58,224 nucleotides of DNA from Mycobacteriales bacterium (GTDB lineage: Bacteria; Actinomycetota; Actinomycetes; JAFAQI01). Under the pieces are notes generated by a model. That model was not told the origin of the DNA, searched no databases, and saw nothing but the letters and a program-made list of their open reading frames with translations. The stretch's first letter is position 1, and each line of letters opens with the position of its first letter. Made by a program: the position numbers and the translations under genes. This document shows positions 31,818-58,224 of the stretch, one piece after another. The stretch lies in NCBI GenBank assembly GCA_035504215.1, contig DATJSI010000142.1, positions 1-58,224 of the forward strand, given 5' to 3'.

Positions 31818-32135
31818 GGCGCGGCGACCCAGCGCGGCGTACGCTGCGCCGGGAAGGCTTCGGGGCCCGGACACCGCCCCGTCCGCGCAGCCGGTCGGAC
31901 CGGCAAGAGGCACCCCACGCACCACTCGCGCGGAGCAAGAGCCCCGACCCGATCCGGTCGTCACGCGCGAAACGGTAACGACGGCGCGGTCACCGTGGCG
32001 GACGTTGTCCACAGGGCCGAACCGTCGCCCGTTCGGAGCAGCACGCGGTAGTGCCGGATGACCGTTCAAGCCCGACGGGAACGCGGCCGATGGGAAACGT
32101 GAGGCCGCCGACCAAGGGCTCGGCCGTGAGACGAG
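31818..32135. other. Intergenic region upstream of the Roadblock operon
   Basis: This divergent gap of about 320 bases must hold promoters for the secreted protein (-) and the Roadblock operon (+). The only structure I see is CCGAAC-N8-GTTCGG (32017-32022 and 32031-32036). No convincing gene is present. Confidence 0.4.
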
Positions 32136-32144
32136 GTGTCCGTG

Positions 32145-32765
32145 ATGTCCGACTCTGCCAACCGCTCCCAGCGGCTCGACCGAGCGATCGCCGACCTGCT
32201 GGCCCAGGTTCCGGAGATCGAGGCCGCTGCTGTGGTGTCCTTCGACGGGCTACCGATGGCCAGCGCGCTGCCGGCGACCATGGACGAGGACCGGGTCGCA
32301 GCCATGAGCGCTGCGCTGCTGAGCCTGGGTGAGCGGGCCGCCGAGGGCCTCGGCCGCGGCGCGCTGAACCAGGTCTACATCGAGGGCGACACCGGCACCG
32401 TGTTCCTGGTCTCCGCCGAGGACGAGGCCGTGCTCGTTGCGGTCGCCGCCAAGGGCGCCAAGGTCGGCATGATGCTTTACGAGGTACGCCGCTCGGCGGC
32501 GACCGTCGCCGACGTGCTGCGGGCCGAGGTGCACCCCGACCCGGTCGCCGAGCAGGCCGCCGCGGTCGCCGAGGCGCCGTTGCTCGCTGCGGTGACCACC
32601 CCACTGACCGCGGTCGACACCGCGCCGGCCGCGGAGGACAACGCTCCGGCCGACAACGTCGAGCCGGTCGCTCCCTACGCGCCGGTCTCTTCGGACCCCG
32701 CGTGGGTCTCCCACCTTCCCAATGGATCAGCGGTAGCGGCGACCGAGCCGCAGCCGTGGTCCTGA
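32145..32765 (+). CDS. Roadblock/LC7 domain protein (MglB/CvnB-like)
   Basis: A 206-residue protein. Residues 8-115 match Roadblock/LC7: LDRAIADLLAQVPEIEAAAVVSFDG, then TVFLVSAEDEAVLVAVAAKGAKVGMMLYEVRR. Such proteins act as GTPase-activating or scaffold partners of small Ras-like GTPases (MglB for MglA; CvnB in actinobacterial conservons). The C-terminal 80 residues are Ala/Pro/Val-rich and probably disordered, an extension not needed for the fold. ATG 32145 follows GAGG at 8 bases. It is first in a four-gene operon with a DUF4388 protein, a GTPase and a small protein. Confidence 0.82.
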   Translation: MSDSANRSQRLDRAIADLLAQVPEIEAAAVVSFDGLPMASALPATMDEDRVAAMSAALLSLGERAAEGLGRGALNQVYIEGDTGTVFLVSAEDEAVLVAVAAKGAKVGMMLYEVRRSAATVADVLRAEVHPDPVAEQAAAVAEAPLLAAVTTPLTAVDTAPAAEDNAPADNVEPVAPYAPVSSDPAWVSHLPNGSAVAATEPQPWS

Positions 32766-32806
32766 CCGACTGCCCCTGACCACCCGACGCCCACCCGAGG
32801 TCTGCC

Positions 32807-33916
32807 GTGAGACTTGAAGGCTCGCTAGACGCCTTCAGCCTGCCGGACATCTTCTCGCTGCTGAGCATGACGAAGAAGACCGGCGGACTGCACCTGCGCC
32901 GTTCCGGCGAACACGGTGTCGTGTGGCTGGGCGACGGCTTGATCAGCGGCGGGGCATCGGACCTGTCGCGCCTCTCGCTGGGCCGCCGGCTGGCCGGCAG
33001 CGGCCAGGTCTCCGACGACGACCTGCAGGCGGCTGTCGAGCAGGTGGCGAACTCCGAGGAGATCGGCCTGGCCCGGGCGCTGCGTGACCGCAACGCGATC
33101 GACGAGGGCGAGCTGCACACGTTGGTCTGCGAGCACATCGTCGACACCGTCTTCGACCTGATGCGCTGGTCGGAGGGCGTGTTCGAGTTCGTCATCGACG
33201 AGCCGAACATCGACGACGTCGGGGTGGCGCTCGAGGTCGAAGAGGTCGTGACCGATGCGCGGCACCGCCTGGACGTGTGGGCCACGATCGACGAGGGCCT
33301 GGCCGCCGCCGACACGGTGCTTGCGCTGACCCTCAACCCTGCCGCGGAACCGCAGATCCAGCGCGACGAGTGGGCCCTGCTTGCGCTCGTCGACGGTCAC
33401 CGGACGGTGAGCGACGTCGTCATGCTGTGCGGCCGTGGCGAGTACGCAGTCGTGGTGGCACTGGCCGAGCTGATCGCGAAGGGTCTCGTGCACACCGACC
33501 ACACCGGCGGGGTCACGGCGCTGCAGCGCCGGCAGGACCTGGTCGGGTCCCTGGAGCCGGAAGCCGCTTCCTCGTCAGCGTTGCTCGCCGACGTGCTGTC
33601 GGACGGCACGGCCGAACCGGACCCGGCGGTCGGCTCGCTGCTCGAGGCCGAGCGGGCCGAAGCCGGAGCTGTCGTCGCACCGGATGCCGAGGCTGACGAG
33701 GACGATGACGAGGACACCGGCGAGGTCGCCGAGGTCTCCACGATTCCTCGCGCGGTGCCGGCGCCTGAGCTGGCACCTGACCATCCGACGCCGGTAGCCG
33801 CGGCGGTAGCGGGCGGCGGAGTCGTCGCCGCCGTGCCGTCCGGCGCGATCGAACGGGACCCGAGCGTGAACAAGAGCCTGCTCCTCCGCCTGATCGCCGG
33901 CGTGAGGGGGCTGTAG
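32807..33916 (+). CDS. DUF4388 domain protein
   Basis: A 369-residue protein. The N terminus is a DUF4388 domain (LEGSLDAFSLPDIFSLLSMT then GGLHLRRSGEHGVVWLGDGLI), found in regulators such as PatA and in gliding or pilus signalling proteins. The middle region (about 75-230) is helical with two winged-helix-like parts (LARALRDRNAIDEGELHTLV; EWALLALVDGHRTVSDVVML). The last 120 residues are acidic and low complexity. It starts at GTG 32807 and ends 2 bases before the GTPase gene. It occupies the place that DUF742 proteins hold in classical conservons. Role as adaptor is inferred. Confidence 0.7.
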   Translation: MRLEGSLDAFSLPDIFSLLSMTKKTGGLHLRRSGEHGVVWLGDGLISGGASDLSRLSLGRRLAGSGQVSDDDLQAAVEQVANSEEIGLARALRDRNAIDEGELHTLVCEHIVDTVFDLMRWSEGVFEFVIDEPNIDDVGVALEVEEVVTDARHRLDVWATIDEGLAAADTVLALTLNPAAEPQIQRDEWALLALVDGHRTVSDVVMLCGRGEYAVVVALAELIAKGLVHTDHTGGVTALQRRQDLVGSLEPEAASSSALLADVLSDGTAEPDPAVGSLLEAERAEAGAVVAPDAEADEDDDEDTGEVAEVSTIPRAVPAPELAPDHPTPVAAAVAGGGVVAAVPSGAIERDPSVNKSLLLRLIAGVRGL

Positions 33917-33918
33917 CC

Positions 33919-34491
33919 ATGGCCAACCGTCCCCGTCGCCGTTCCGCCGGCACTGCGGTCAAGATCGTCGTGACCGGTCCGTTCGCGGCCGGCAAGACCA
34001 CGCTGATCCGCACGATCAGCGAGATCACCGTGCTCTCGACCGAGCGCGGCATCACCGACGAGACCCGCTCGCGCAAGACCGACACCACGGTCGCGATGGA
34101 CTTCGGGCGGATCACGATCGACCGCGACCTGGTCCTCTACCTGTTCGGTACGCCGGGACAGGACCGCTTCGACTTCATGTGGGAGATCCTCGGCGAGGGG
34201 ATGCTCGGCTACGTGGTGCTGGTCGACGCGTCGCGGGCGGAGTCGCTCGACGAGGCGGTCAGCATCCGCGAGGCGTTCCGCAAGATGGCACGGGTGCCGT
34301 TCGTCGTCGGGCTCAACCGTGCCGCCGGGCTCGACGAGGCCGAGGAGGCCAACGTGCGGGCTCGCCTCGACCTCGAAGACCACGTCCCCGTCGTGCCGTG
34401 TGACGTCACCGATCGCGAGTCCGTGAAGTCGGTCCTGCTGGCTCTGCTCTATGCAGTGGTCGACTCGCTGGACGCGGCGACCGCCGTCTAG
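33919..34491 (+). CDS. Small Ras-like GTPase (MglA/CvnD-like)
   Basis: A 190-residue nucleotide switch. G1 is GPFAAGKT (20-27), a Thr in the switch I region is available (TDETRSRKTDTTVAMDFG), G3 is GTPGQDRF (77-84), and the G4 position reads LNRAAG rather than NKxD, as seen in CvnD-type proteins. It probably cycles with the Roadblock protein of the same operon to control polarity, development or motility. Cognate DUF742 and histidine kinase partners of a full conservon are missing here. Confidence 0.88.
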   Translation: MANRPRRRSAGTAVKIVVTGPFAAGKTTLIRTISEITVLSTERGITDETRSRKTDTTVAMDFGRITIDRDLVLYLFGTPGQDRFDFMWEILGEGMLGYVVLVDASRAESLDEAVSIREAFRKMARVPFVVGLNRAAGLDEAEEANVRARLDLEDHVPVVPCDVTDRESVKSVLLALLYAVVDSLDAATAV

Positions 34492-48565: not shown

Positions 48566-48602
48566 GGGTCAAGAAGCGGCGTAATCGCGCCGATGCCACA
48601 GC

Positions 48603-50102
48603 GTGACCCCAGCTGTGGTCGCAGCGTCGCCCACGACCGCTGTGGCCCCTCCCTCGCACGCGCCCGAGCGTTCGTCGCGCGTGCTTGCTCTGCTGGCCGG
48701 AAACCTGCCGGCCGCCGCGGCGCTCGCCGCCTGCACCTGGTGGCTGTTGCTCGCCCCGCGCCTCGAAGGCGGCCGGGGTGCGGGCGCCGTGACCGGCGGC
48801 GCCATCCTGACCGCACTCGCGGTCCTCGCCAGCCGGCCCGAACGGGTGCTGCCGCGCCCTGCGGTCTGGCTCGCGCTGGCGATCAGCGTGGCGGCATTCG
48901 GCGTCGCCGTGCTCGCTCCCACCGGCTGGGCTGGTGCGCCGACCGCCGCCAGCTACGTCTGCGCGAGCTGGACCACGATCGCGGTTGCCGCCGCGGTCGT
49001 ACGGTCACCCAAGCTGCGGAACCTCGTCCTGCTGCTGGTGGTCGGGGGAGTCCTCATCGAGCTCGCCGAGTCCTGGATGGCCTGGTGGGGTGGCACCGAC
49101 GCCAGCGTCCCGATCAGCGGGACGTTCTACTGGTACGACCCGTTTGCTGCGTTCATGCTGGCCGGCACGGTCATCGGTCTGTCGTACTGGCTGCGGCGCT
49201 CGGGGCCGCTGGCGCTGTTCGGGCTGGTGGGCGCCGCGCTCGGCAGCATCGGGATGGTCTACTCCACGAGCCGGGCCGCCATCGCCTGCTTCGCCGTTGC
49301 CATCGGCTGCGTCGCGGTCGGGGCCGTGTGGGGCCGCGGCCGGGTGGGCGCGAAGCGGCTCGCGATCGGAGCCGCGGTCGTCGGCTTCGCGGTCTGGGTC
49401 ATCGGTGGGCCGCCGTTCTTCCCGCACCGCTCGCTGCCCTTCGCCGGCACCGCCGGCCGAGCCGCGGGACAGTCCCTCGGCCAGAACGGCAGCTACCGGC
49501 TGGAGTTCTGGCGCGAGGCGCTCACTGTGTTCCGCCGGCACCCGCTGGTCGGCGGTGGCTACCACTCGCTGGCGTCCGCTGCCGTGGGTCACGTCCCGCC
49601 CACCTGGTCGCTCTCGCCGCTCGCCCACAACGGGTACCTGCAGGCGCTCTCGGACGGCGGGCTGCTGCTCGGCGTACCCTTCCTGCTCGCTCTTGCGGCG
49701 ATCTCGTGGTACGTCGTCGCAGCGCTGATCGGCGCGGTTCGACGCCGCGACTTCTCGACCGGCGGGTTCGTCGTTCCGCTCTGCCTCGGTGCGCTGCTCG
49801 TCCACTCGGCAGTTGACTTCGACTGGTCCTACGCAGCCGACTTCGAGGTCGTCGCGATCCTTGCCGGGCTGGTCGCCGCGGCGCGCTGGGCCGCGCCTGC
49901 CGATGGCTCGGCCGCAGAACGGGCGGCCGCGACCGGCCGCCCGGGTGCCCGGCTGCTTTCCGGAGCAGTCCTCGTCGGTGTGGCGCTGCTCGCAGTGGCC
50001 GCCGGCGTCGCCCACAACGGCGACTTCAAGCAGTCGCTGCCGATCGGATCCAGCGCATCGCGGTCCGTCGTCCACCACTCGACCAGCGGGGGTAAGGCGT
50101 GA
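48603..50102 (+). CDS. Wzy_C family membrane protein (O-antigen ligase or pilin O-oligosaccharyltransferase type)
   Basis: A 499-residue protein with about 11-12 hydrophobic segments. The large outer loop includes YRLEFWREALTVFRRHPLVGGGYHSLASAA and PLAHNGYLQALSDGGLLLGVPFLL, the Wzy_C signature with the conserved R and H-N. This family includes O-antigen ligase WaaL, polymerases, and the pilin O-glycosylases PglL/TfpO. The stop overlaps the pilB start by 4 bases (GTGA), so it is probably translated together with pilus assembly genes. It starts at GTG 48603. Ligase versus pilin glycosylase cannot be decided from sequence. Confidence 0.82.
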   Translation: MTPAVVAASPTTAVAPPSHAPERSSRVLALLAGNLPAAAALAACTWWLLLAPRLEGGRGAGAVTGGAILTALAVLASRPERVLPRPAVWLALAISVAAFGVAVLAPTGWAGAPTAASYVCASWTTIAVAAAVVRSPKLRNLVLLLVVGGVLIELAESWMAWWGGTDASVPISGTFYWYDPFAAFMLAGTVIGLSYWLRRSGPLALFGLVGAALGSIGMVYSTSRAAIACFAVAIGCVAVGAVWGRGRVGAKRLAIGAAVVGFAVWVIGGPPFFPHRSLPFAGTAGRAAGQSLGQNGSYRLEFWREALTVFRRHPLVGGGYHSLASAAVGHVPPTWSLSPLAHNGYLQALSDGGLLLGVPFLLALAAISWYVVAALIGAVRRRDFSTGGFVVPLCLGALLVHSAVDFDWSYAADFEVVAILAGLVAAARWAAPADGSAAERAAATGRPGARLLSGAVLVGVALLAVAAGVAHNGDFKQSLPIGSSASRSVVHHSTSGGKA

Positions 50103-51760
50103 AGCAGCTCGGCGACATCCTGGTCGAGGACGGCCTGGTCACTGAGGACCAGCTCGCCGACGCCTACGACGAGCACCAGCGCGTCGGGCGCGCCCTCGGT
50201 CGCGTCCTGGTCGACCGCGGCGTGCTCACCGAGAGCCAACTGGTCGCAGCGCTCGCCCAGCAGATCGGCATGCGCTTCGTCGACCTCACGGAGTTCCCGA
50301 TCGACGGCTCGGCGCTGTCGACCGTGCCCCCGATCGTCTGCCGCCGCTACAACGCGCTCCCGATCGGGTTCGAGGACGGCAAGCTGCTGGTCGCGATGTC
50401 GGACCCGGCGAACGTCTTCGCGCTCGACGACATCCGCTCGATCACCGGCATCGAGGTCAAGCCGGTCGTCGCGACCAAGTCCGACGTCAGCGCGGCGATC
50501 AACCGCTTCCACCGCGCGGACTCCGACCTCGATGACCTCACGATGGCCCTCGATGAGGAAGAGGACACCGGGCTCGACAACCTCAAAGAGGTCGTCGAGG
50601 ACGCCCCGATCGTCAAGTTCGTCAACCTGCTGATCACGCAGGCGATCAACGACCGGGCCTCGGACATCCACCTCGAGCCGACCGAGCGGGACCTGCGCGT
50701 GCGGTTCCGCATCGACGGCGTGCTGCACGAGATCATGCGCTCGCCTCGCAACATCCAGTCCGGCGTGACCAGCCGCCTGAAGATCATGGCGGACATCAAC
50801 ATCGCCGAGCGCCGGATCCCGCAGGACGGCCGGCTCTCGGTCACCGTGAGCGGGAAGAAGATCGACCTGCGGGTGGCGACGCTTCCCACGGTGTGGGGCG
50901 AAAAGGTCGTCATGCGAGTGCTGGACAACTCGACCGCGATGCTGAACCTGTCCGATCTCGGGTTCAGCGACGGCAACTACGAGCGGTACTCGGTGAGCTT
51001 CCAGAAGCCGTACGGGATGATCCTCGTGACGGGACCGACCGGATCCGGGAAGTCCACGACGCTCTACGCGACGCTGAACATCGTCAGCCGGCCGGAGATC
51101 AACGTGATCACGGTCGAGGACCCCGTTGAGTACCGAATTGCCGGGATCAACCAGGTTCAGACCAACCCGAAGGCGGGCCTGACCTTCGCGACTGCACTCC
51201 GGTCGATCCTGCGTTCCGACCCCGACGTCGTCCTCATTGGTGAGATCCGGGACCACGAGACGGCCCAGATCGCGATCGAGGCCGCCCTCACCGGTCACCT
51301 CGTGCTCACCAGCTTGCACACCAACGACGCGCCTTCGGCGATGACCCGACTGGTCGAGATGGGGATCGAGCCGTTCCTGGTCGGTTCGGCGCTTGACTCC
51401 GTTCTCGCGCAGCGGCTCGCCCGGCGGCTGTGTGAGAAGTGCAAGGAGCCCTACACGCCGGAGCCCTCGGTGCTGCGCTCGGCGCAGTTCCCCTGGGAGG
51501 ACGGCGAGCCGCTGCCGACGCTCTACCGCGCAGTCGGGTGCTCGGCCTGCTCGAAGACCGGCTACCGCGGCCGGCTCGCGCTGCACGAGGTGATGACCGT
51601 GAGCGAGGACATCGAGCGGCTCACGGTGGCACGAGCCTCGGCGATCGAGATCGGCCGTACCGCACGGGAGCAGGGGATGCGACTACTGCGCCTCGACGGG
51701 ATGGACAAGGCCGTGGCCGGCGTCACGTCACTGGAGGAGATTCTCCGCGTCGTGGTCTGA
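50099..51760 (+). CDS. pilB: Type IV pilus assembly ATPase PilB
   Basis: A 553-residue cytoplasmic motor ATPase for pilus extension. Residues 1-150 form an MshEN/T2SSE_N domain with two LG-x-x-L-V-x-x-G repeats (QLGDILVEDGLV, ALGRVLVDRGVL). The catalytic core has DIHLEPTERDLRVRFRIDG, Walker A GPTGSGKSTTLYA (about 312), the Asp box VEDPVEYRI, and Walker B VVLIGEIRDHETA with LTSLHTND. The zinc-binding tetracysteine module (CEKCKEPY, CSACSKTGYRGR) near 445-490 is typical of PilB/GspE and absent in PilT. GTG 50099 overlaps the upstream gene; pilT follows 115 bases on. Confidence 0.95.
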   Translation: MKQLGDILVEDGLVTEDQLADAYDEHQRVGRALGRVLVDRGVLTESQLVAALAQQIGMRFVDLTEFPIDGSALSTVPPIVCRRYNALPIGFEDGKLLVAMSDPANVFALDDIRSITGIEVKPVVATKSDVSAAINRFHRADSDLDDLTMALDEEEDTGLDNLKEVVEDAPIVKFVNLLITQAINDRASDIHLEPTERDLRVRFRIDGVLHEIMRSPRNIQSGVTSRLKIMADINIAERRIPQDGRLSVTVSGKKIDLRVATLPTVWGEKVVMRVLDNSTAMLNLSDLGFSDGNYERYSVSFQKPYGMILVTGPTGSGKSTTLYATLNIVSRPEINVITVEDPVEYRIAGINQVQTNPKAGLTFATALRSILRSDPDVVLIGEIRDHETAQIAIEAALTGHLVLTSLHTNDAPSAMTRLVEMGIEPFLVGSALDSVLAQRLARRLCEKCKEPYTPEPSVLRSAQFPWEDGEPLPTLYRAVGCSACSKTGYRGRLALHEVMTVSEDIERLTVARASAIEIGRTAREQGMRLLRLDGMDKAVAGVTSLEEILRVVV

Positions 51761-51794: not shown

Positions 51795-51875
51795 CAAGAC
51801 CGGGCGGAAGCAGGCCGATGCAGACCTGAGGCGGGAGCGGTCTCGCTGCTCGCGGACGACCTCACACGAGGGGAT

Positions 51876-53339
51876 ATGCAGGTGGAGACTCAGGGCAACG
51901 ACGCTTCGTCCATTCCGCCGATGGTTTCGTCGGAATCGGCTCCGCCGGTCGGCCTAAGCCCGCTCGACCCGGGGTGGTCGCCGGACGGCGGCACGGTGAC
52001 CTCACCGTCCGCGCCGCCCGCCACGCTCCTGCCGTCGGTGGCGCCCGTTGCGCCGTCGGTCGCGCCGGCTGCCCCGGCCCCGGTACCCGCCGCCGCGGCG
52101 CCACTGCCGTCGGTGGCTCCTACGCTGCCGCCGCCGGCTGCGCCAGTGGCGCCTCCGATGGCTCCGCCCATGGCTCCGCCGCCGAACGAGCCTCCGCTCG
52201 GCTCGGTCAACCCCCAGGTCGACCTCGACACCAGCTATGCGCGTGCGGCACTGGAGGAGGACAGCGGCCTGGAGGCCGGCTTGCTCTCCGAGCTGCTGGT
52301 GGAGTGCCAGGACAGCGGTGCGTCCGACCTGCACCTGTCAGCGGGCGCGCGCCCGACGTTGCGCATGAACGGCACGCTGGTCCCGATGGAGGACCGTGCG
52401 ATCCTCACGCCTCCGGTCATCCAGCGGATGATGTACGCGATTCTCACCCAGAAGCAGCGGGAGCGTTTCGAGGAGGAGCTCGAGCTGGACTTCGCGTTCG
52501 CGCTTCCGGGCCGGGCCCGCTTCCGGGTCAACCTCTACCGCCAGCGGGACGCCCTCGGTGCGGCGTTCCGGATCATCCCCTACGAGATCAAGGCGCTCGA
52601 GGACCTCGGCATCCCGCCGAGCGTGGCCAACTTCGCCATGCTGCCGCGCGGGTTCGTCCTGGTCACCGGGCCGACCGGTTCCGGTAAGTCGACGACCCTG
52701 GCCTCTCTGGTCGACCTGGCCAACCGCCAGCGGCACGACCACATCATGACGGTCGAGGACCCGATCGAGTTCCTGCACAGCCACAAGGCCTGCCTGGTCA
52801 ACCAGCGCGAGGTCGGCGAGGACACCTGGTCGTTCCAGAACGCCCTGAAGCACGTTCTGCGCCAGGACCCCGACATCATCCTGGTCGGCGAAATGCGTGA
52901 CCTCGAGACCATCTCGGTGGCACTGACCGCCGCCGAGACCGGCCACCTGGTGTTCGCGACCCTGCACACCCAGGATGCGGCGCAGACCATCGACCGGGTC
53001 ATCGACGTCTTCCCGTCGCACCAGCAGCAGCAGATCCGCGTCCAGCTCGCCGGTGCGATCCAGGGCGTCGTCTGCCAGACGTTGTGCAAGACCTACGACG
53101 GCAAGGCGCGTGCGGTCGCGACCGAGGTCATGGTGGCCACCCCCGCCATCCGCAACCTGATCCGCGAGGGCAAGACCCACCAGATCTACTCCGCACTCCA
53201 GGCCGGGGCGCGGTACGGGATGCACACCCTCGACCAGCACCTGGCCGAGCTGGTGAAGGCGGGCCGGATCACCTACGAGACCGCGCTCGACAAGTGCCAT
53301 CACGTCGAGGACTTCAACCGGCTGACCGGCCGGGCCTGA
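51876..53339 (+). CDS. pilT: Type IV pilus retraction ATPase PilT with Pro/Ala-rich N-terminal extension
   Basis: A 487-residue ATPase. Residues 1-115 are low complexity and rich in Pro, Ala and Ser (several APV, PSVAP and APPM units). The PilT core (about 130-487) follows: ASDLHLSAGARPTLRMNG, Walker A GPTGSGKSTTLASL (about 265), VEDPIEFLH, Walker B IILVGEMRDLETI, and LHTQDAAQTIDRVIDVFP. The C-terminal AIRNLIREGKTHQI with the AIRNLIRE retraction motif marks it as PilT rather than PilB. No tetracysteine. Normal PilT is 340-370 residues, so the extension is lineage specific. Confidence 0.95.
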   Translation: MQVETQGNDASSIPPMVSSESAPPVGLSPLDPGWSPDGGTVTSPSAPPATLLPSVAPVAPSVAPAAPAPVPAAAAPLPSVAPTLPPPAAPVAPPMAPPMAPPPNEPPLGSVNPQVDLDTSYARAALEEDSGLEAGLLSELLVECQDSGASDLHLSAGARPTLRMNGTLVPMEDRAILTPPVIQRMMYAILTQKQRERFEEELELDFAFALPGRARFRVNLYRQRDALGAAFRIIPYEIKALEDLGIPPSVANFAMLPRGFVLVTGPTGSGKSTTLASLVDLANRQRHDHIMTVEDPIEFLHSHKACLVNQREVGEDTWSFQNALKHVLRQDPDIILVGEMRDLETISVALTAAETGHLVFATLHTQDAAQTIDRVIDVFPSHQQQQIRVQLAGAIQGVVCQTLCKTYDGKARAVATEVMVATPAIRNLIREGKTHQIYSALQAGARYGMHTLDQHLAELVKAGRITYETALDKCHHVEDFNRLTGRA

Positions 53340-53350
53340 GAGGACGCACC

Positions 53351-54577
53351 ATGGCAACAGTCACGACGTACAAGTACGCGGTCCGCGACCGATCAGGCAA
53401 GCTGGTCAACGGCGAGCTCGCGGCCGAGACGGAGGCCGCCGTCGTCCAGCGGCTGAAGTCGATGGGCTACGCCCCGGTGTCGGTGACCGAGGCGCACTCG
53501 GGCCTGCAGACCGAGATCAAGATCCCGGGCATGGGTACCAAGGTCAAGCTCAAGGACCTGGCGATCTTCTCGCGGCAGTTCGCCACGATGATCAACTCCG
53601 GCCTGTCACTGATGCGGGCCCTCACCATCCTGGCGGAGCAGACCGAGAACAAGGAGCTCGCGCGGGTTATCGGCGAGGTTCGCAACGAGGTCGAAGCCGG
53701 GTCGGCGCTGTCCCTCGCGATGGGCAAGCACCCCAAGGTCTTCCCACCGCTGATGGTGAACCTCTGCAAGGCCGGCGAGATCGGTGGCTTCCTCGACGCG
53801 GTCCTGCTCCAGATCGCCGAGAACTACGAGGCGGAGGTCAAGCTCCGCTCGAAGATCAAGGCCGCGATGACCTACCCGATCGTGGTCGGCTGCATCGCGA
53901 TCATCGCCTTGATCGTCATGCTGACGTTCGTCGTTCCTTCGTTCGCGAAGATCTTCTCCTCGCTGGGATCGCAGCTTCCCGCCCCGACCCAGATGCTGGT
54001 CGACATCTCGCATGCGATGAAGTTCATCCTGCCGATCATGATCATCGGCGGGATCGCCGGGCTCATGACCTGGAAGCGGATCAAGCACCAGGAGCGCGTC
54101 CGCCGGATCGTCGACCCGTGGAAGCTGCGCCTTCCGGTGTTCGGGATGTTGTTCCAGAAGGTCGCCATCGCGCGGTTCGCCCGCAACCTGGGCACGATGA
54201 TCCACTCAGGCGTCCCGATCCTCCAGGCACTCGAGATCGTTTCGGAGACCACTGGCAACTGGACCATCACCGCGGCCGTGCGCGACGTGCAGGACAGCGT
54301 CCGCAACGGCGAGTCGCTCACCCAGCCGCTGAGCCAGCACGATGTCTTCCCACCGATGGTCGTGCAGATGATGGCGGTCGGCGAGGAGACCGGCGCGCTC
54401 GACACGATGCTGCACAAGATCGCCGAGTTCTACGACCAGGAGGTCGAGGCGACCACTGAGGCACTGACCGCTCTGATCGAGCCGATCATGATCGCCGTGC
54501 TCGGTGGCCTCGTGGGCTCGATGATCGTCTGTCTCTACCTGCCGATCTTCGACGTGTACAACCACGTCGGAAGCTGA
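53351..54577 (+). CDS. pilC: Type IV pilus inner-membrane platform protein PilC
   Basis: A 408-residue membrane protein that couples PilB/PilT to pilin handling. It has two repeated T2SF domains. The first has FSRQFATMINSGLSLMRALTILAEQT and the second FARNLGTMIHSGVPILQALEIV. Helices are AAMTYPIVVGCIAIIALIVM (about 175), a second near 225, and the C-terminal EPIMIAVLGGLVGSMIVCLYLPIFD. It starts 11 bases after the pilT stop with GAGAGGA upstream. A 12-bp stem terminator follows, so pilB-pilT-pilC and the pilin operon are separate transcripts. Confidence 0.96.
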   Translation: MATVTTYKYAVRDRSGKLVNGELAAETEAAVVQRLKSMGYAPVSVTEAHSGLQTEIKIPGMGTKVKLKDLAIFSRQFATMINSGLSLMRALTILAEQTENKELARVIGEVRNEVEAGSALSLAMGKHPKVFPPLMVNLCKAGEIGGFLDAVLLQIAENYEAEVKLRSKIKAAMTYPIVVGCIAIIALIVMLTFVVPSFAKIFSSLGSQLPAPTQMLVDISHAMKFILPIMIIGGIAGLMTWKRIKHQERVRRIVDPWKLRLPVFGMLFQKVAIARFARNLGTMIHSGVPILQALEIVSETTGNWTITAAVRDVQDSVRNGESLTQPLSQHDVFPPMVVQMMAVGEETGALDTMLHKIAEFYDQEVEATTEALTALIEPIMIAVLGGLVGSMIVCLYLPIFDVYNHVGS

Positions 54578-54601
54578 ACCAAGCGGTATCCCTCCCTGCG
54601 T

Positions 54602-54631
54602 ACGCGGCGCCCCGGGCTCGGGGCGCCGCGT
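54602..54631 (+). terminator. Strong hairpin terminator after pilC
   Basis: A 12-bp perfect stem (ACGCGGCGCCCC, 54602-54613, with GGGGCGCCGCGT, 54620-54631) and 6-base loop lies 24 bases after the pilC stop. No T tract is seen, but such stems end transcripts in high-GC bacteria. Confidence 0.75.
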
Positions 54632-54650
54632 CGTGGTCGTGTGGCGGCAG

Positions 54651-54688
54651 TTCGTGCATGCGGCCGAATGGGCTAACAGAATTCGGCC
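54651..54688 (+). promoter_or_regulatory. Candidate pilin promoter with overlapping inverted repeat
   Basis: TTCGTG (54651-54656) and TAACAG (54674-54679) are 17 bases apart. GGCCGAAT (54662-54669) and ATTCGGCC (54681-54688) form an 8-bp inverted repeat that brackets the -10, so a repressor or activator could act here. It would give a leader of about 240 bases carrying the riboswitch. Confidence 0.4.
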
Positions 54689-54762
54689 AAATACAAGGCC
54701 TCCGGCCCTTCAAGTCCGTCGGCGGAAAGCCGATCTATCCCTTGTCATCGAGCCGTAAGGCC

Positions 54763-54843
54763 AGGCAAGGGCACACCCGTCGTGAGGCGGGGTCGCAAAG
54801 CTACGGGACTCACAGCTCCCAACGTGAGTTAGCCGGGCTGCCT
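54763..54843 (+). promoter_or_regulatory. Cyclic-di-GMP-I (GEMM-I) riboswitch
   Basis: The 81-base element has the GEMM-I parts in order. P1 is AGGCA (54763-54767) with TGCCT (54839-54843). The AGGGCA joining strand is at 54768-54773; by alignment with the Vc2 aptamer, 54770 is the ligand-reading G20. P2 (CCCGTC/GGCGGG) is capped by a GNRA tetraloop GTGA (54782-54785). The conserved core GTCGCAAAGC is at 54792-54801. P3 is ACTCAC/GTGAGT (54808-54813, 54824-54829), and TAGCC (54830-54834) supplies the second ligand-pairing base. It lies 84 bases before the first pilin gene. Keeping G20 points to c-di-GMP rather than the cGAMP-selective variant. Confidence 0.88.
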
Positions 54844-54863
54844 CGGCCGGCACCCTTTCGGGG

Positions 54864-54900
54864 GAGCCGCGCAGAGGGGGAGCGCTCACCAGCGCGGCTC
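54864..54900 (+). promoter_or_regulatory. Hairpin between riboswitch and pilin start (likely expression platform)
   Basis: GAGCCGCGC (54864-54872) and GCGCGGCTC (54892-54900) make a perfect 9-bp stem. A smaller alternative hairpin, GGCACCC-TTTC-GGGGGAGCC (54849-54868), shares the GAGCC bases, so the two exclude each other. Such alternatives are expected where a riboswitch chooses between ON and OFF folds. No T tract follows, so translation control or Rho is as likely as intrinsic termination. Confidence 0.55.
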
Positions 54901-54927
54901 ACCGAAAGTACAACGGAAGGATCCGCA

Positions 54928-55368
54928 ATGCTCGCTCGACTCCGCAAGATGCAGGAGGAGAATGAGGGTGGCTTCACTCTCATCGAGCTCCTGGTCGTGA
55001 TCATCATCATCGGCATCCTTGCCGCGATCGCGATCCCGGTCTTCCTCCAGCAGCGCAAGAAGGGCTACGACGCGGCCGTCAAGTCCGACCTCGTCGCCGC
55101 CGCGACTGCTGAGGAGACCTACCTGACCGACTTCAACACCTACACCGACAGCACCAGCAACCTGGCCACCAAGGAGTCCTTCAAGTTCTCCGCCGGTGGC
55201 GACTACAACGGTGGCACTGCGGCTCTGACCATCGTGTCCAACACGAACCAGGGCTACTGCATCACCGGCGTTGCCGCGTCGGGCAACACGTGGTTCTACG
55301 ACAGCAGCGCGGGCGGCGTTCAGCCGGCGGCGTCGTCGTACACCTGTGGGGTCAGCGGCGCCAGCTGA
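54928..55368 (+). CDS. Type IV pilin, probable major pilin
   Basis: A 146-residue prepilin. A 15-residue basic leader ends at GG before F16, and Glu is at mature position 5 (FTLIELLVVIIIIGILAAIA), so prepilin peptidase should cut and methylate it. The N-terminal helix is followed by a short globular domain with a C-terminal Cys pair (GYCITG... and YTCGV) making the D-region loop. The protein ends in VSGAS, with serine last. GGAAGGA lies before the ATG. The riboswitch sits directly upstream and a strong hairpin directly downstream, fitting a highly expressed major subunit. Confidence 0.95.
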   Translation: MLARLRKMQEENEGGFTLIELLVVIIIIGILAAIAIPVFLQQRKKGYDAAVKSDLVAAATAEETYLTDFNTYTDSTSNLATKESFKFSAGGDYNGGTAALTIVSNTNQGYCITGVAASGNTWFYDSSAGGVQPAASSYTCGVSGAS

Positions 55369-55483: not shown

Positions 55484-55930
55484 GTGTTCCGCACCGCCCA
55501 ACAGCGGACCGCCGACGCCACTGACGCCGGCTTCAGCATGATCGAGCTCCTGGTCGTCATCATCATCATCGGCGTCCTGGCCGCGATCGCGATCCCGGTC
55601 TTCCTGAGCCAGCGCGACAAGGGCTACGACGTGGCGGTCAAGTCCGACCTCGTCGCCGCCGCCAACGCCGAAGAGGCCTACAGCACCGACTTCAACACCT
55701 ACACCGACAGCGCCAGCCAGCTGAAATCGGCCGAGGGCTTCAAGTTCTCCCAGGCCGGCGAGTACAGCGGGGGCACGCCGGCGATGACGATCGTCTCTGC
55801 CGGGTCGAAGGGCTACTGCATCACCGCGACGGCCGCGTCCGGAAACACCTGGTTCTACGACAGCAACAACGGGGGACTCCAGCCACTCAGCACCTCTGGC
55901 TACACCTGCTCGGTATCCGGAGCCTCATAG
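55484..55930 (+). CDS. Type IV pilin paralogue 2
   Basis: A 148-residue prepilin. Leader of 16 residues ends in AG before F17, with Glu at mature position 5 (FSMIELLVVIIIIGVLAAIA). From KGYDVAVKSDLVAAANAEE onward it is closely similar to pilin 1, including the D-loop (GYCITATAASGNTWFYDS and YTCSVSGAS). It ends in the same VSGAS. GTG 55484 follows GGAGG at 7 bases. Clearly a tandem duplicate of pilin 1. Confidence 0.94.
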   Translation: MFRTAQQRTADATDAGFSMIELLVVIIIIGVLAAIAIPVFLSQRDKGYDVAVKSDLVAAANAEEAYSTDFNTYTDSASQLKSAEGFKFSQAGEYSGGTPAMTIVSAGSKGYCITATAASGNTWFYDSNNGGLQPLSTSGYTCSVSGAS

Positions 55931-55981: not shown

Positions 55982-56431
55982 GTGATCGCAGCGCACCACC
56001 GGCCGCAGACCGACGAGGTCGATGCCGGGTTCACCCTGATTGAGCTGCTTGTCGTGATCATCATCATTGGCATCCTTGCGGCGATTGCCATCCCGGTCTT
56101 CCTGAACCAGCGGCTCAAGGCCTATGACACGGCCTCCAAGGAGGACCTGCGCAACCTCGCCAACTTCGAAGAGATCTACCTCGACGACTTCGCCAGCTAC
56201 GGGACGATCGCCGAGATCCAGGCAAAGGAACCGACGATCAAGCCGAGCGGCGGCGTCACGCTGTCCGTGGTCGACTTCATCGGCAACTACGGATACTGCC
56301 TGTCCGCAAGCCATGCCGGCGACCCCAAGGTCTGGTACTACGACAGCCAGGGCGGCGGGCTGCAGCCCAACGGCGCAACCGGGTGTCCGGTCACCACCGG
56401 CGGCACCCCGGGCGACAGCGTCACAGGTTGA
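55982..56431 (+). CDS. Type IV pilin paralogue 3
   Basis: A 149-residue prepilin with a 16-residue leader ending AG before F17 and Glu at mature position 5. The helix is nearly identical to pilin 1, but the globular part has diverged (YDTASKEDLRNLANFEEIYLDDFASYG) and ends in GTPGDSVTG, not Ser. The Cys pair is kept (GYCLSAS, GCPVTT). GTG 55982 follows GGGGAGGG at 5 bases. Probably a minor subunit. Confidence 0.93.
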   Translation: MIAAHHRPQTDEVDAGFTLIELLVVIIIIGILAAIAIPVFLNQRLKAYDTASKEDLRNLANFEEIYLDDFASYGTIAEIQAKEPTIKPSGGVTLSVVDFIGNYGYCLSASHAGDPKVWYYDSQGGGLQPNGATGCPVTTGGTPGDSVTG

Positions 56432-56490
56432 CCGGGCGATCCACCCAGATGGCTATCAATCATCGCCATGCTCGTGCCGATAGAGCCGAC

Positions 56491-58224
56491 GTGACCCGCT
56501 TCTTCTCGCGTGCCCTGCGACCAGGCTCCCGGCCGGACGAGGGCTTCTCCATGGTCGAGATGATGGTCGCCCTGCTGATCATCGCGATCGTGTCAGCGGC
56601 GAGCGTCGCGTTCTTCGTGGCCAACATCCGCGGGGTGAACGACCAGCGCCAGCATCAAGAAGCGGTCTACCTTGCCAACCAGCAGATGGAGACGGTCACC
56701 TCCCTGCCGGTGAGCAAGCTGGTGTCCGGGCGGACCCAGGCCGAGGTCACAGCGCTCTACTCGAGCGCGGCCGCGACCGCCCTCAACATCAGCGCGCAGG
56801 ACGACACCACCAACGCCGGCAACTACGACTCGACCGCGTCGACCACCGGCAACGAGGTCGTCCCGCTGACCGTCACCCAGAGCGTCAACAGCGTGCCGTA
56901 CTCCCTGACCACGTTCATCGACGTGTGCTGGTACAACAACACGACCGGGTTCTGCACGCCGACCCAGACGTCGTCCACGACCCAGGAGTACCGGGTCTCC
57001 GTCTACGTGACGTGGACTTCCGCGGGGACGTGTGCGAACGGATGCAACTACTCGACCAGCACGCTGATCGACCCGAGCTCGGACCCGTTGTTCAACACGA
57101 ACATCAGCACCCCGTCGGCCACGCTGACCACCCCGGCGTCCGGAACGGTCGTCAACGACAATGACGCGAGCTCTTGCACGACGAACGGCAACACGTACGC
57201 CGGCACGCTGTTCTCCTTCACCGGCGGCGCGTACCTCAAGTCGAACATCAGGGTCTTGATCTCCACCGGCGGCGGAACGATTCCGTCGGCGAGCATCTAC
57301 CAACCGAGCGGGTCCGAGGTGGACTTCTGCCTGCAGACCTACGACCAGCCGGGCACCTACACGCTCTCGGTGATCAACACCGACGGTGGTCACTTCCAGA
57401 CCTCGATCACGGAGCTGCCGAACCTCACCTCGGCCTCAGGCTGGACACCGACCGCGAAGAACCTGACTCTCACCGGTGGCGGGTTCGAGTCCGGCGCGAC
57501 CTTCGCGGCGACCGGCGCGAGCTGGACCGGCACCTCCGGTTTGGTCACCGGCAAGAGCATCAACAACGGCGATGCCAACGACGACTCCGTCACGCTGACC
57601 AACTTCACCGGGCCCACCAACGGTGGCACGGCGACGATCACGATGACGAACCCCGACCTGACCACGGCGACGTGGACGATCACCGCGCCGAAGGAGACGT
57701 CGGTCAGCCGCACCGCCCTGGTGTCGGGGCAGACGCTCAGCGTCACGGTCGGCGGCTCCGGCTTCCAGAGCGGCTTCACCCCGGTCGTGGTGAACGCGAC
57801 CGGAAGCGCGACCTACCTGTCGTCGACCGCGGTGTCGCTGAGCCTGACCGGCATCACGGTCGGCACGCCCGCAACCGTCATCATCTACAACCCGGATGGC
57901 GGCGCCAGCAACACGATGTCGTTCGCCGTGGACGCGCCGCCGGTGGTCAACAGCGCGACGCCCAACAAGGTGGTCGCCGGCCAGACCATCAGCGTGAGTA
58001 TCGCCGGCACCGGTTTCGTGAGCGGCCTCACCGTGAGCCAGACGAACGGCAGTGGGCTGACGGTGAGCGGCCTGACGTCGACCAGCATGACCCTGTCGGT
58101 CACGGCTTCGACGGTTGGCACCGACGCCCTCACCATCACCAACCCGGACGGGGGCACGGCGAGCTTCTCGTTGACGGTCGATGCGCCACCGGCGATCGCC
58201 TCGGTGAGTCCGAACCCGGCGCTC
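56491..58224 (+). CDS. Large prepilin with Ig-like (IPT/TIG-type) repeats, runs off the window
   Basis: At least 578 residues, open at the right edge. An 18-residue leader ends at EG before F19, with Glu at mature position 5 (FSMVEMMVALLIIAIVSAA), so it is a class III-helix prepilin of the PilV/minor-pilin type. The rest is a long Thr/Ser/Gly-rich beta region with repeated units such as SGQTLSVTVGGSGFQSGF, AGQTISVSIAGTGFVSGL and NPDGGTASFSLTVDAPP, the look of IPT/TIG domains. Cys pairs occur near 150-260. ATG 56449 is an alternative start with a 32-residue leader. Likely a pilus-tip adhesin or assembly protein; the end is not seen. Confidence 0.82.
   Translation, partial: MTRFFSRALRPGSRPDEGFSMVEMMVALLIIAIVSAASVAFFVANIRGVNDQRQHQEAVYLANQQMETVTSLPVSKLVSGRTQAEVTALYSSAAATALNISAQDDTTNAGNYDSTASTTGNEVVPLTVTQSVNSVPYSLTTFIDVCWYNNTTGFCTPTQTSSTTQEYRVSVYVTWTSAGTCANGCNYSTSTLIDPSSDPLFNTNISTPSATLTTPASGTVVNDNDASSCTTNGNTYAGTLFSFTGGAYLKSNIRVLISTGGGTIPSASIYQPSGSEVDFCLQTYDQPGTYTLSVINTDGGHFQTSITELPNLTSASGWTPTAKNLTLTGGGFESGATFAATGASWTGTSGLVTGKSINNGDANDDSVTLTNFTGPTNGGTATITMTNPDLTTATWTITAPKETSVSRTALVSGQTLSVTVGGSGFQSGFTPVVVNATGSATYLSSTAVSLSLTGITVGTPATVIIYNPDGGASNTMSFAVDAPPVVNSATPNKVVAGQTISVSIAGTGFVSGLTVSQTNGSGLTVSGLTSTSMTLSVTASTVGTDALTITNPDGGTASFSLTVDAPPAIASVSPNPAL

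Follow-up and report, generated by a model that had tools for sequence, protein, structure and literature searches.

Bordeleau et al. are said to have reported in 2015 (cited in PMC6916266) that the type IV pili of C. difficile are under the control of a c-di-GMP riboswitch. The roles of c-di-GMP-I riboswitches in Actinobacteria, and the control of type IV pili there, are little known. Control of type IV pili by WhiG and RsiG has been described in Rubrobacter (PMC8325347). The locus described here shares features with both systems. It lies in a window of 58,224 nucleotides, the whole stretch of DNA that was analysed and one complete contig. According to Pfam matches, the contig carries an O-antigen-ligase-like gene, pilB, whose product has an MshEN domain, a pilT-like gene, pilC, and four genes with a prepilin-methylation motif, in that order, and the riboswitch sits between the end of pilC (54577) and the start of the first pilin (54928). 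The features are as follows.

48603 to 50102, + strand, O-antigen-ligase-like gene (PF04932)
50099 to 51760, + strand, pilB with MshEN domain (PF00437, PF05157)
51876 to 53339, + strand, pilT-like gene (PF00437)
about 53300 to 54577, + strand, pilC (PF00482)
54761 to 54846, + strand, c-di-GMP-I aptamer (RF03167 66.8 bits, RF01051 58.4 bits)
54915 to 54921, + strand, Shine-Dalgarno-like GGAAGGA, read from the sequence, 6 nt before the ATG at 54928
54928 to 55368, + strand, type IV pilin (146 aa) that opens the riboswitch unit (PF07963 N_methyl, E 6e-8)
55484 to 55930, + strand, second pilin-like gene (PF07963, E 8.5e-6)
55982 to 56431, + strand, third pilin-like gene (PF07963, E 2e-7)
56456 to 58224, including a WhiG-type site, + strand, large minor pilin with a possible GTG start at 56491, running off the contig end (PF07963, E 9e-7)

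The sequence evidence supports reading the element as the aptamer of a c-di-GMP-I riboswitch, located in the leader that precedes a type IV pilin unit of an actinobacterium. The aptamer is of a known kind. The preferred reading, with a probability of roughly two in three, is that two c-di-GMP inputs act in series on the pilin unit, a WhiG/RsiG promoter and an aptamer leader with a P0 switch.

Other features of the cluster were also noted. A GC-rich inverted repeat lies 3' of pilC, at about 54605-54628. The MshEN domain of PilB (50099-51760) was considered as a third c-di-GMP input. It has the two 24-residue motifs with the right 5-residue spacing and the hydrophobic positions kept, but three key residues deviate from the published c-di-GMP motif consensus (PMC5013675), namely R to Q, R to A, and Q to H, and c-di-GMP binding by the domain is uncertain.

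Predicted WhiG-type promoters and their probable regulators

Sites resembling the flagellar/WhiG consensus TAAA-N15/16-GCCGATAA (PMC8325347) are found at four places in the pilus cluster.

48569 (TCAA) with GCCGATGC at 48589-48596, + strand, WhiG-type site before the O-antigen-ligase-like gene
51794 (TCAA) with GCCGATGC at 51814-51821, + strand, WhiG-type site before the pilT-like gene
54710 to 54736, + strand, predicted sigma-28/WhiG-type promoter by consensus match, TCAA at 54710-54713, N15, GCCGATCT at 54729-54736
56456 (TCAA) with GCCGATAG at 56476-56483, + strand, WhiG-type site before the large minor pilin

The pilin site, TCAA-N15-GCCGATCT, has 9 of 12 consensus matches, its -10 box being two bases off consensus, and would place the transcription start near 54743-54744, about 17 nt before the aptamer. 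We took the promoter consensus from the literature and chose the range of spacings and the cut-off score of 9 ourselves. Every one of the four gaps where a pilus transcription unit begins holds a site scoring at least 9, and in none of 3000 shuffles were more than two gaps hit; the gaps were picked after the sites were known, so this result is supportive, not independent. Across the genome the strict promoter pattern occurs 34 times versus 7 for the reversed pattern, and the sites outside the window are mostly within long open frames. One WhiG-type site is followed by roadblock/LC7-, DUF4388-like and small GTPase-looking genes, as read from the sequence (32066-34491).

The site is also found in related leaders. 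Across 30 pilin leaders from relatives, the best promoter match scores on average 8.47 of 12, compared with 6.82 (sd 0.14, maximum 7.23) in 300 dinucleotide shuffles, and in most of them the -10 box lies 29-38 nt before the aptamer. Twenty c-di-GMP-I leaders from a phylum sample, none of them from the pilin set, have a mean of 9.65 versus 7.58 when shuffled (sd 0.16), and 17 of the 20 score at least 9 where 2.6 are expected; they include several closely related CAP-protein leaders and are not 20 independent events. Control leaders not assigned to Actinobacteria have a mean of 7.27 versus 7.08, with 7 of 64 scoring at least 9 (3.4 expected).

The genome encodes both WhiG and RsiG. It has one FliA/WhiG-family gene above the curated cut-off (282 bits), whose product matches S. 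venezuelae WhiG (6pfj_A, E 7e-121). A motif search gave an RsiG candidate in which two E-S-R-Q-D motifs lie 101 codons apart in one frame. This protein (L227:1309-1932) matches S. venezuelae RsiG over nearly its whole length (6pfj_T, E 1e-29), and its E(X)3S(X)2R(X)3Q(X)3D motifs, ETDLSYLRRLLQGRLD and EATVSANRRAVQHVMD, make it an RsiG of the twin-motif type. A second, weaker RsiG-like protein (L229:1372-1917, contig C125) has a degenerate second motif, and a WhiG-type site precedes its gene (C125:21943). There are 19 GGDEF matches in the genome. Because the genome encodes both WhiG and the c-di-GMP-dependent anti-sigma factor RsiG, c-di-GMP probably acts twice; WhiG would be the sigma factor used at the pilin promoter.

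The same proteins accompany the pilin riboswitch in the class. Among the pilin-riboswitch genomes that are at least 90% complete, a strong match to RsiG is present in 23 of 23 and a match to WhiG, at the threshold applied, in 21 of 23. In the 268 good genomes of the class sample overall, any RsiG match is found in 80 and WhiG in 97. The intersections were counted by hand, and common descent can account for part of the association. RsiG also occurs in many genomes that lack a pilin riboswitch.

Architecture of the leader RNA

Between its presumed 5' end and the start codon, the leader can form an outer helix, P0, that encloses the aptamer, and a hairpin that competes with it.

54750 to 54756, + strand, 5' strand of P0, GAGCCGU, pairing with 54894-54900 (covariation in 28 leaders)
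54849 to 54868, + strand, hairpin H1, which excludes the B:C hairpin (complementarity, and the fold with P0 forced)
54864 to 54872, + strand, strand B, GAGCCGCGC, which pairs with 54892-54900 and excludes P0 and H1 (predicted minimum-energy fold)
54892 to 54900, + strand, strand C, GCGCGGCUC, common to P0 (54894-54900) and the B:C hairpin

In 28 aligned pilin leaders, a GAGCYGC strand immediately 5' of the aptamer pairs with a downstream GCRGCUC, and RNAalifold predicts the first five P0 pairs unprompted. The helix has 90.3% of cells paired and a covariation of 0.226 versus 0.153 (sd 0.017) in shuffles (0 of 500), statistics that rest on related sequences. Five measures were compared with shuffles, and two of these are weak (238 of 500 and 32 of 500). 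When the partner strand is slid by one to three columns, pairing falls to 29-45%. The leaders L039 and L164, in which the aligner misplaced the 3' strand, and the near-duplicates L029 and L033 were kept out of the covariation alignment; L039 and L164 can also be read as P0-pairing. A hairpin like H1 is readable in many related leaders.

In the fold model for the window, the B:C hairpin is favored over P0 by about 9 kcal/mol. Two outputs of such a switch were considered and are not supported in the window. Masking of the ribosome site is not predicted, with an accessibility of 0.60 versus 0.59 in the two modelled states, and no U run follows the competing hairpin as in an intrinsic terminator. 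Since the two states do not differ in how open the ribosome site is and there is no U-run terminator, no output mechanism is visible. P0 may possibly act through mRNA stability, ribosome standby, or Rho.

The strongest rival explanation is an ordinary c-di-GMP-I riboswitch behind a housekeeping promoter, in which the WhiG-type site matches the consensus by coincidence and P0 is an extension of the aptamer that does not switch. Isolated sites that resemble promoters occur often, the -10 box GCCGATCT is imperfect, and P0 forms in many leaders in a fold that has no ligand term. However, the site is fixed in position and enriched both in the 30 pilin leaders and in the phylum sample, while the control is near chance, and it is present in all four pilus-cluster gaps. 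We regard this explanation as unlikely, and the reading with two c-di-GMP inputs is preferred.

Identity of the aptamer and its recurrence

An earlier note on this DNA, made from the sequence alone, had placed a GEMM-I element in the pilin leader and named the lack of a covariance-model match as one outcome that would refute it. That outcome did not occur: RF01051 matches the locus with 58.4 bits (cut-off 35 bits; E 9.7e-11 over the 3.47 Mb genome), and the pilin-leader aptamer is the single RF01051 match in the genome. The assignment to RF01051 holds in that the score is well above the cut-off, but the best-scoring family is RF03167 (c-di-GMP-I-GGC), which gives the sole Rfam match in a scan of the whole window (54761-54846, + strand, 66.8 bits, E 1.2e-13; cut-off 59 bits). 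The location given in the earlier note, 54763-54843, is right, while the exact limits differ from those of the Rfam match. An Rfam scan restricted to 54600-55000 gave no further matches.

All of the elements that the note had listed are present: a paired P1, AAGGGCA, a P2 capped by the GNRA loop GUGA (54782-54785), GTCGCAAAGC at 54792-54801, P3, and TAGCC at 54830. The GUGA loop is read from the sequence, and its docking into a receptor in P3 would be a tertiary contact. The ligand-contact positions of c-di-GMP-I aptamers, including G20, A47, and C92, are known (PMC7288161). In the RF03167 alignment, with the numbering of Vibrio Vc2, G20 is 54770, as had been proposed, and A47 (54797) and C92 (54841) are likewise of the c-di-GMP type; C46-A47-A48-A49-G50 corresponds to 54796-54800.

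The consensus and the name of RF03167 suggest that GGC stands for positions 20, 47, and 92, and that a G equivalent to A47 defines the variant. The window has CGCAAAGC where the RF03167 consensus has CGCGAAgC, so that the consensus G is replaced by A at 54797. Because this base is A, we take the ligand site to be the ordinary c-di-GMP-I set G20/A47/C92, and we take the higher RF03167 score to reflect the overall sequence. Binding of c-di-GMP by the aptamer is predicted from these bases.

The arrangement is found in many relatives. RF01051 matches occur in 8 of 12 genomes of the family, 40 of 297 in the class sample, and 143 of 396 in the phylum sample. Two main kinds of protein are encoded downstream in the class, pilins beginning MLARIRK..GFTLIE and secreted proteins that were read as CAP-domain proteins. 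In most class loci the pilins start 44-86 nt after the aptamer. The link to an actinobacterial pilin made in the earlier note is borne out; since the arrangement recurs in about 29 of the 297 sampled class genomes (a hand count), it is not an accident of one genome.

Other targets were seen beside the pilins. L009, L011, L012, L013, and other relatives have c-di-GMP-I aptamers before secreted CAP-like proteins, and these leaders have an outer helix resembling P0, whose 3' strand can pair with the Shine-Dalgarno region instead. Such pairing would suggest ligand-ON control in those leaders, a direction that is not transferred to the pilin. In L018, L021, and L069 the aptamer directly precedes a small secreted protein with a SAFTA segment, and in two of the three a signal-peptidase-like protein, as read from the sequence, is next.

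The genome has a second pilin, 92% identical to the first (L292:1724-2167, contig C44). In the short leader of this gene there is a WhiG-type site, TCAA-N16-ACCGATCA, and the RF01051 search of the genome found no aptamer there. The two genes offer a natural comparison, with a WhiG-type site before each and an aptamer in one. The second copy also fits an explanation in which the aptamer before the first pilin has decayed, regulates nothing, and only the promoter matters. This is very improbable, since the core bases and pairs are all kept and P2 and P3 covary across the 28 aligned leaders. The least probable rival, a c-di-GMP-I-GGC variant with a different or altered ligand preference, has the RF03167 score in its favor. 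It was rejected as a reading of the ligand, since A stands at the deciding position. Related pilin leaders also have CGCAAAG or CGCAGAG at this place, and only 2 of the 12 family genomes are above the RF03167 cut-off versus 8 of 12 for RF01051.

Two proposed c-di-GMP inputs and comparison with known systems

In the preferred reading, with two inputs in series, a sigma-WhiG promoter would produce a transcript whose 5' end lies about 17 nt upstream of the aptamer. The anti-sigma factor RsiG is predicted, from homology and the Rubrobacter work, to keep WhiG inactive at high c-di-GMP. The pilin transcript would then carry the c-di-GMP-I aptamer. Ligand binding would stabilize P1 and favor P0 (54750-54756 with 54894-54900) over the pairing of 54864-54872 with 54892-54900, and the choice between P0 and the competing hairpin would alter translation or stability of the pilin mRNA. 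That P1 is linked to P0, and that expression responds at all, are parts of the proposal.

The direction of the riboswitch would determine what the pair does. If it is ON with ligand, the promoter and riboswitch together would let the signal through only at intermediate c-di-GMP concentrations. If it is OFF with ligand, both inputs would sharpen one threshold. If the reading is true, one messenger would act on one gene through a sigma/anti-sigma pair and an RNA switch, making this a clear and testable case of layered second-messenger control. A link between a WhiG promoter and a c-di-GMP riboswitch was not found in a search limited to one library of papers, some of which were judged by title and abstract. 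A wider design, in which surface genes for pilins and CAP-like proteins throughout the Actinobacteria have sigma-WhiG promoters gated by RsiG and c-di-GMP and mRNAs with c-di-GMP-I riboswitches, is proposed tentatively, at a little below even odds.

The locus resembles the C. difficile pili in having a c-di-GMP riboswitch before type IV pilus genes. It differs in that the C. difficile riboswitch is presumed to be of class II, while the one here is of class I and follows a WhiG-type promoter. Rubrobacter shares the WhiG-type promoters inside a type IV pilus cluster and the presence of WhiG and RsiG, but the paper describing it (PMC8325347) does not mention a riboswitch; the RsiG found here is of the twin-motif type. 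RF03167 is the best-scoring Rfam model and its cut-off is exceeded, but an A stands at the position of its consensus G. With c-di-GMP-I (GEMM-I, RF01051) the element shares the aptamer architecture, the ligand-contact bases, and a score above the gathering cut-off. It differs in lacking a visible intrinsic terminator with a U run and in having an extra helix, P0, which closes the aptamer onto the 5' end of the mRNA.
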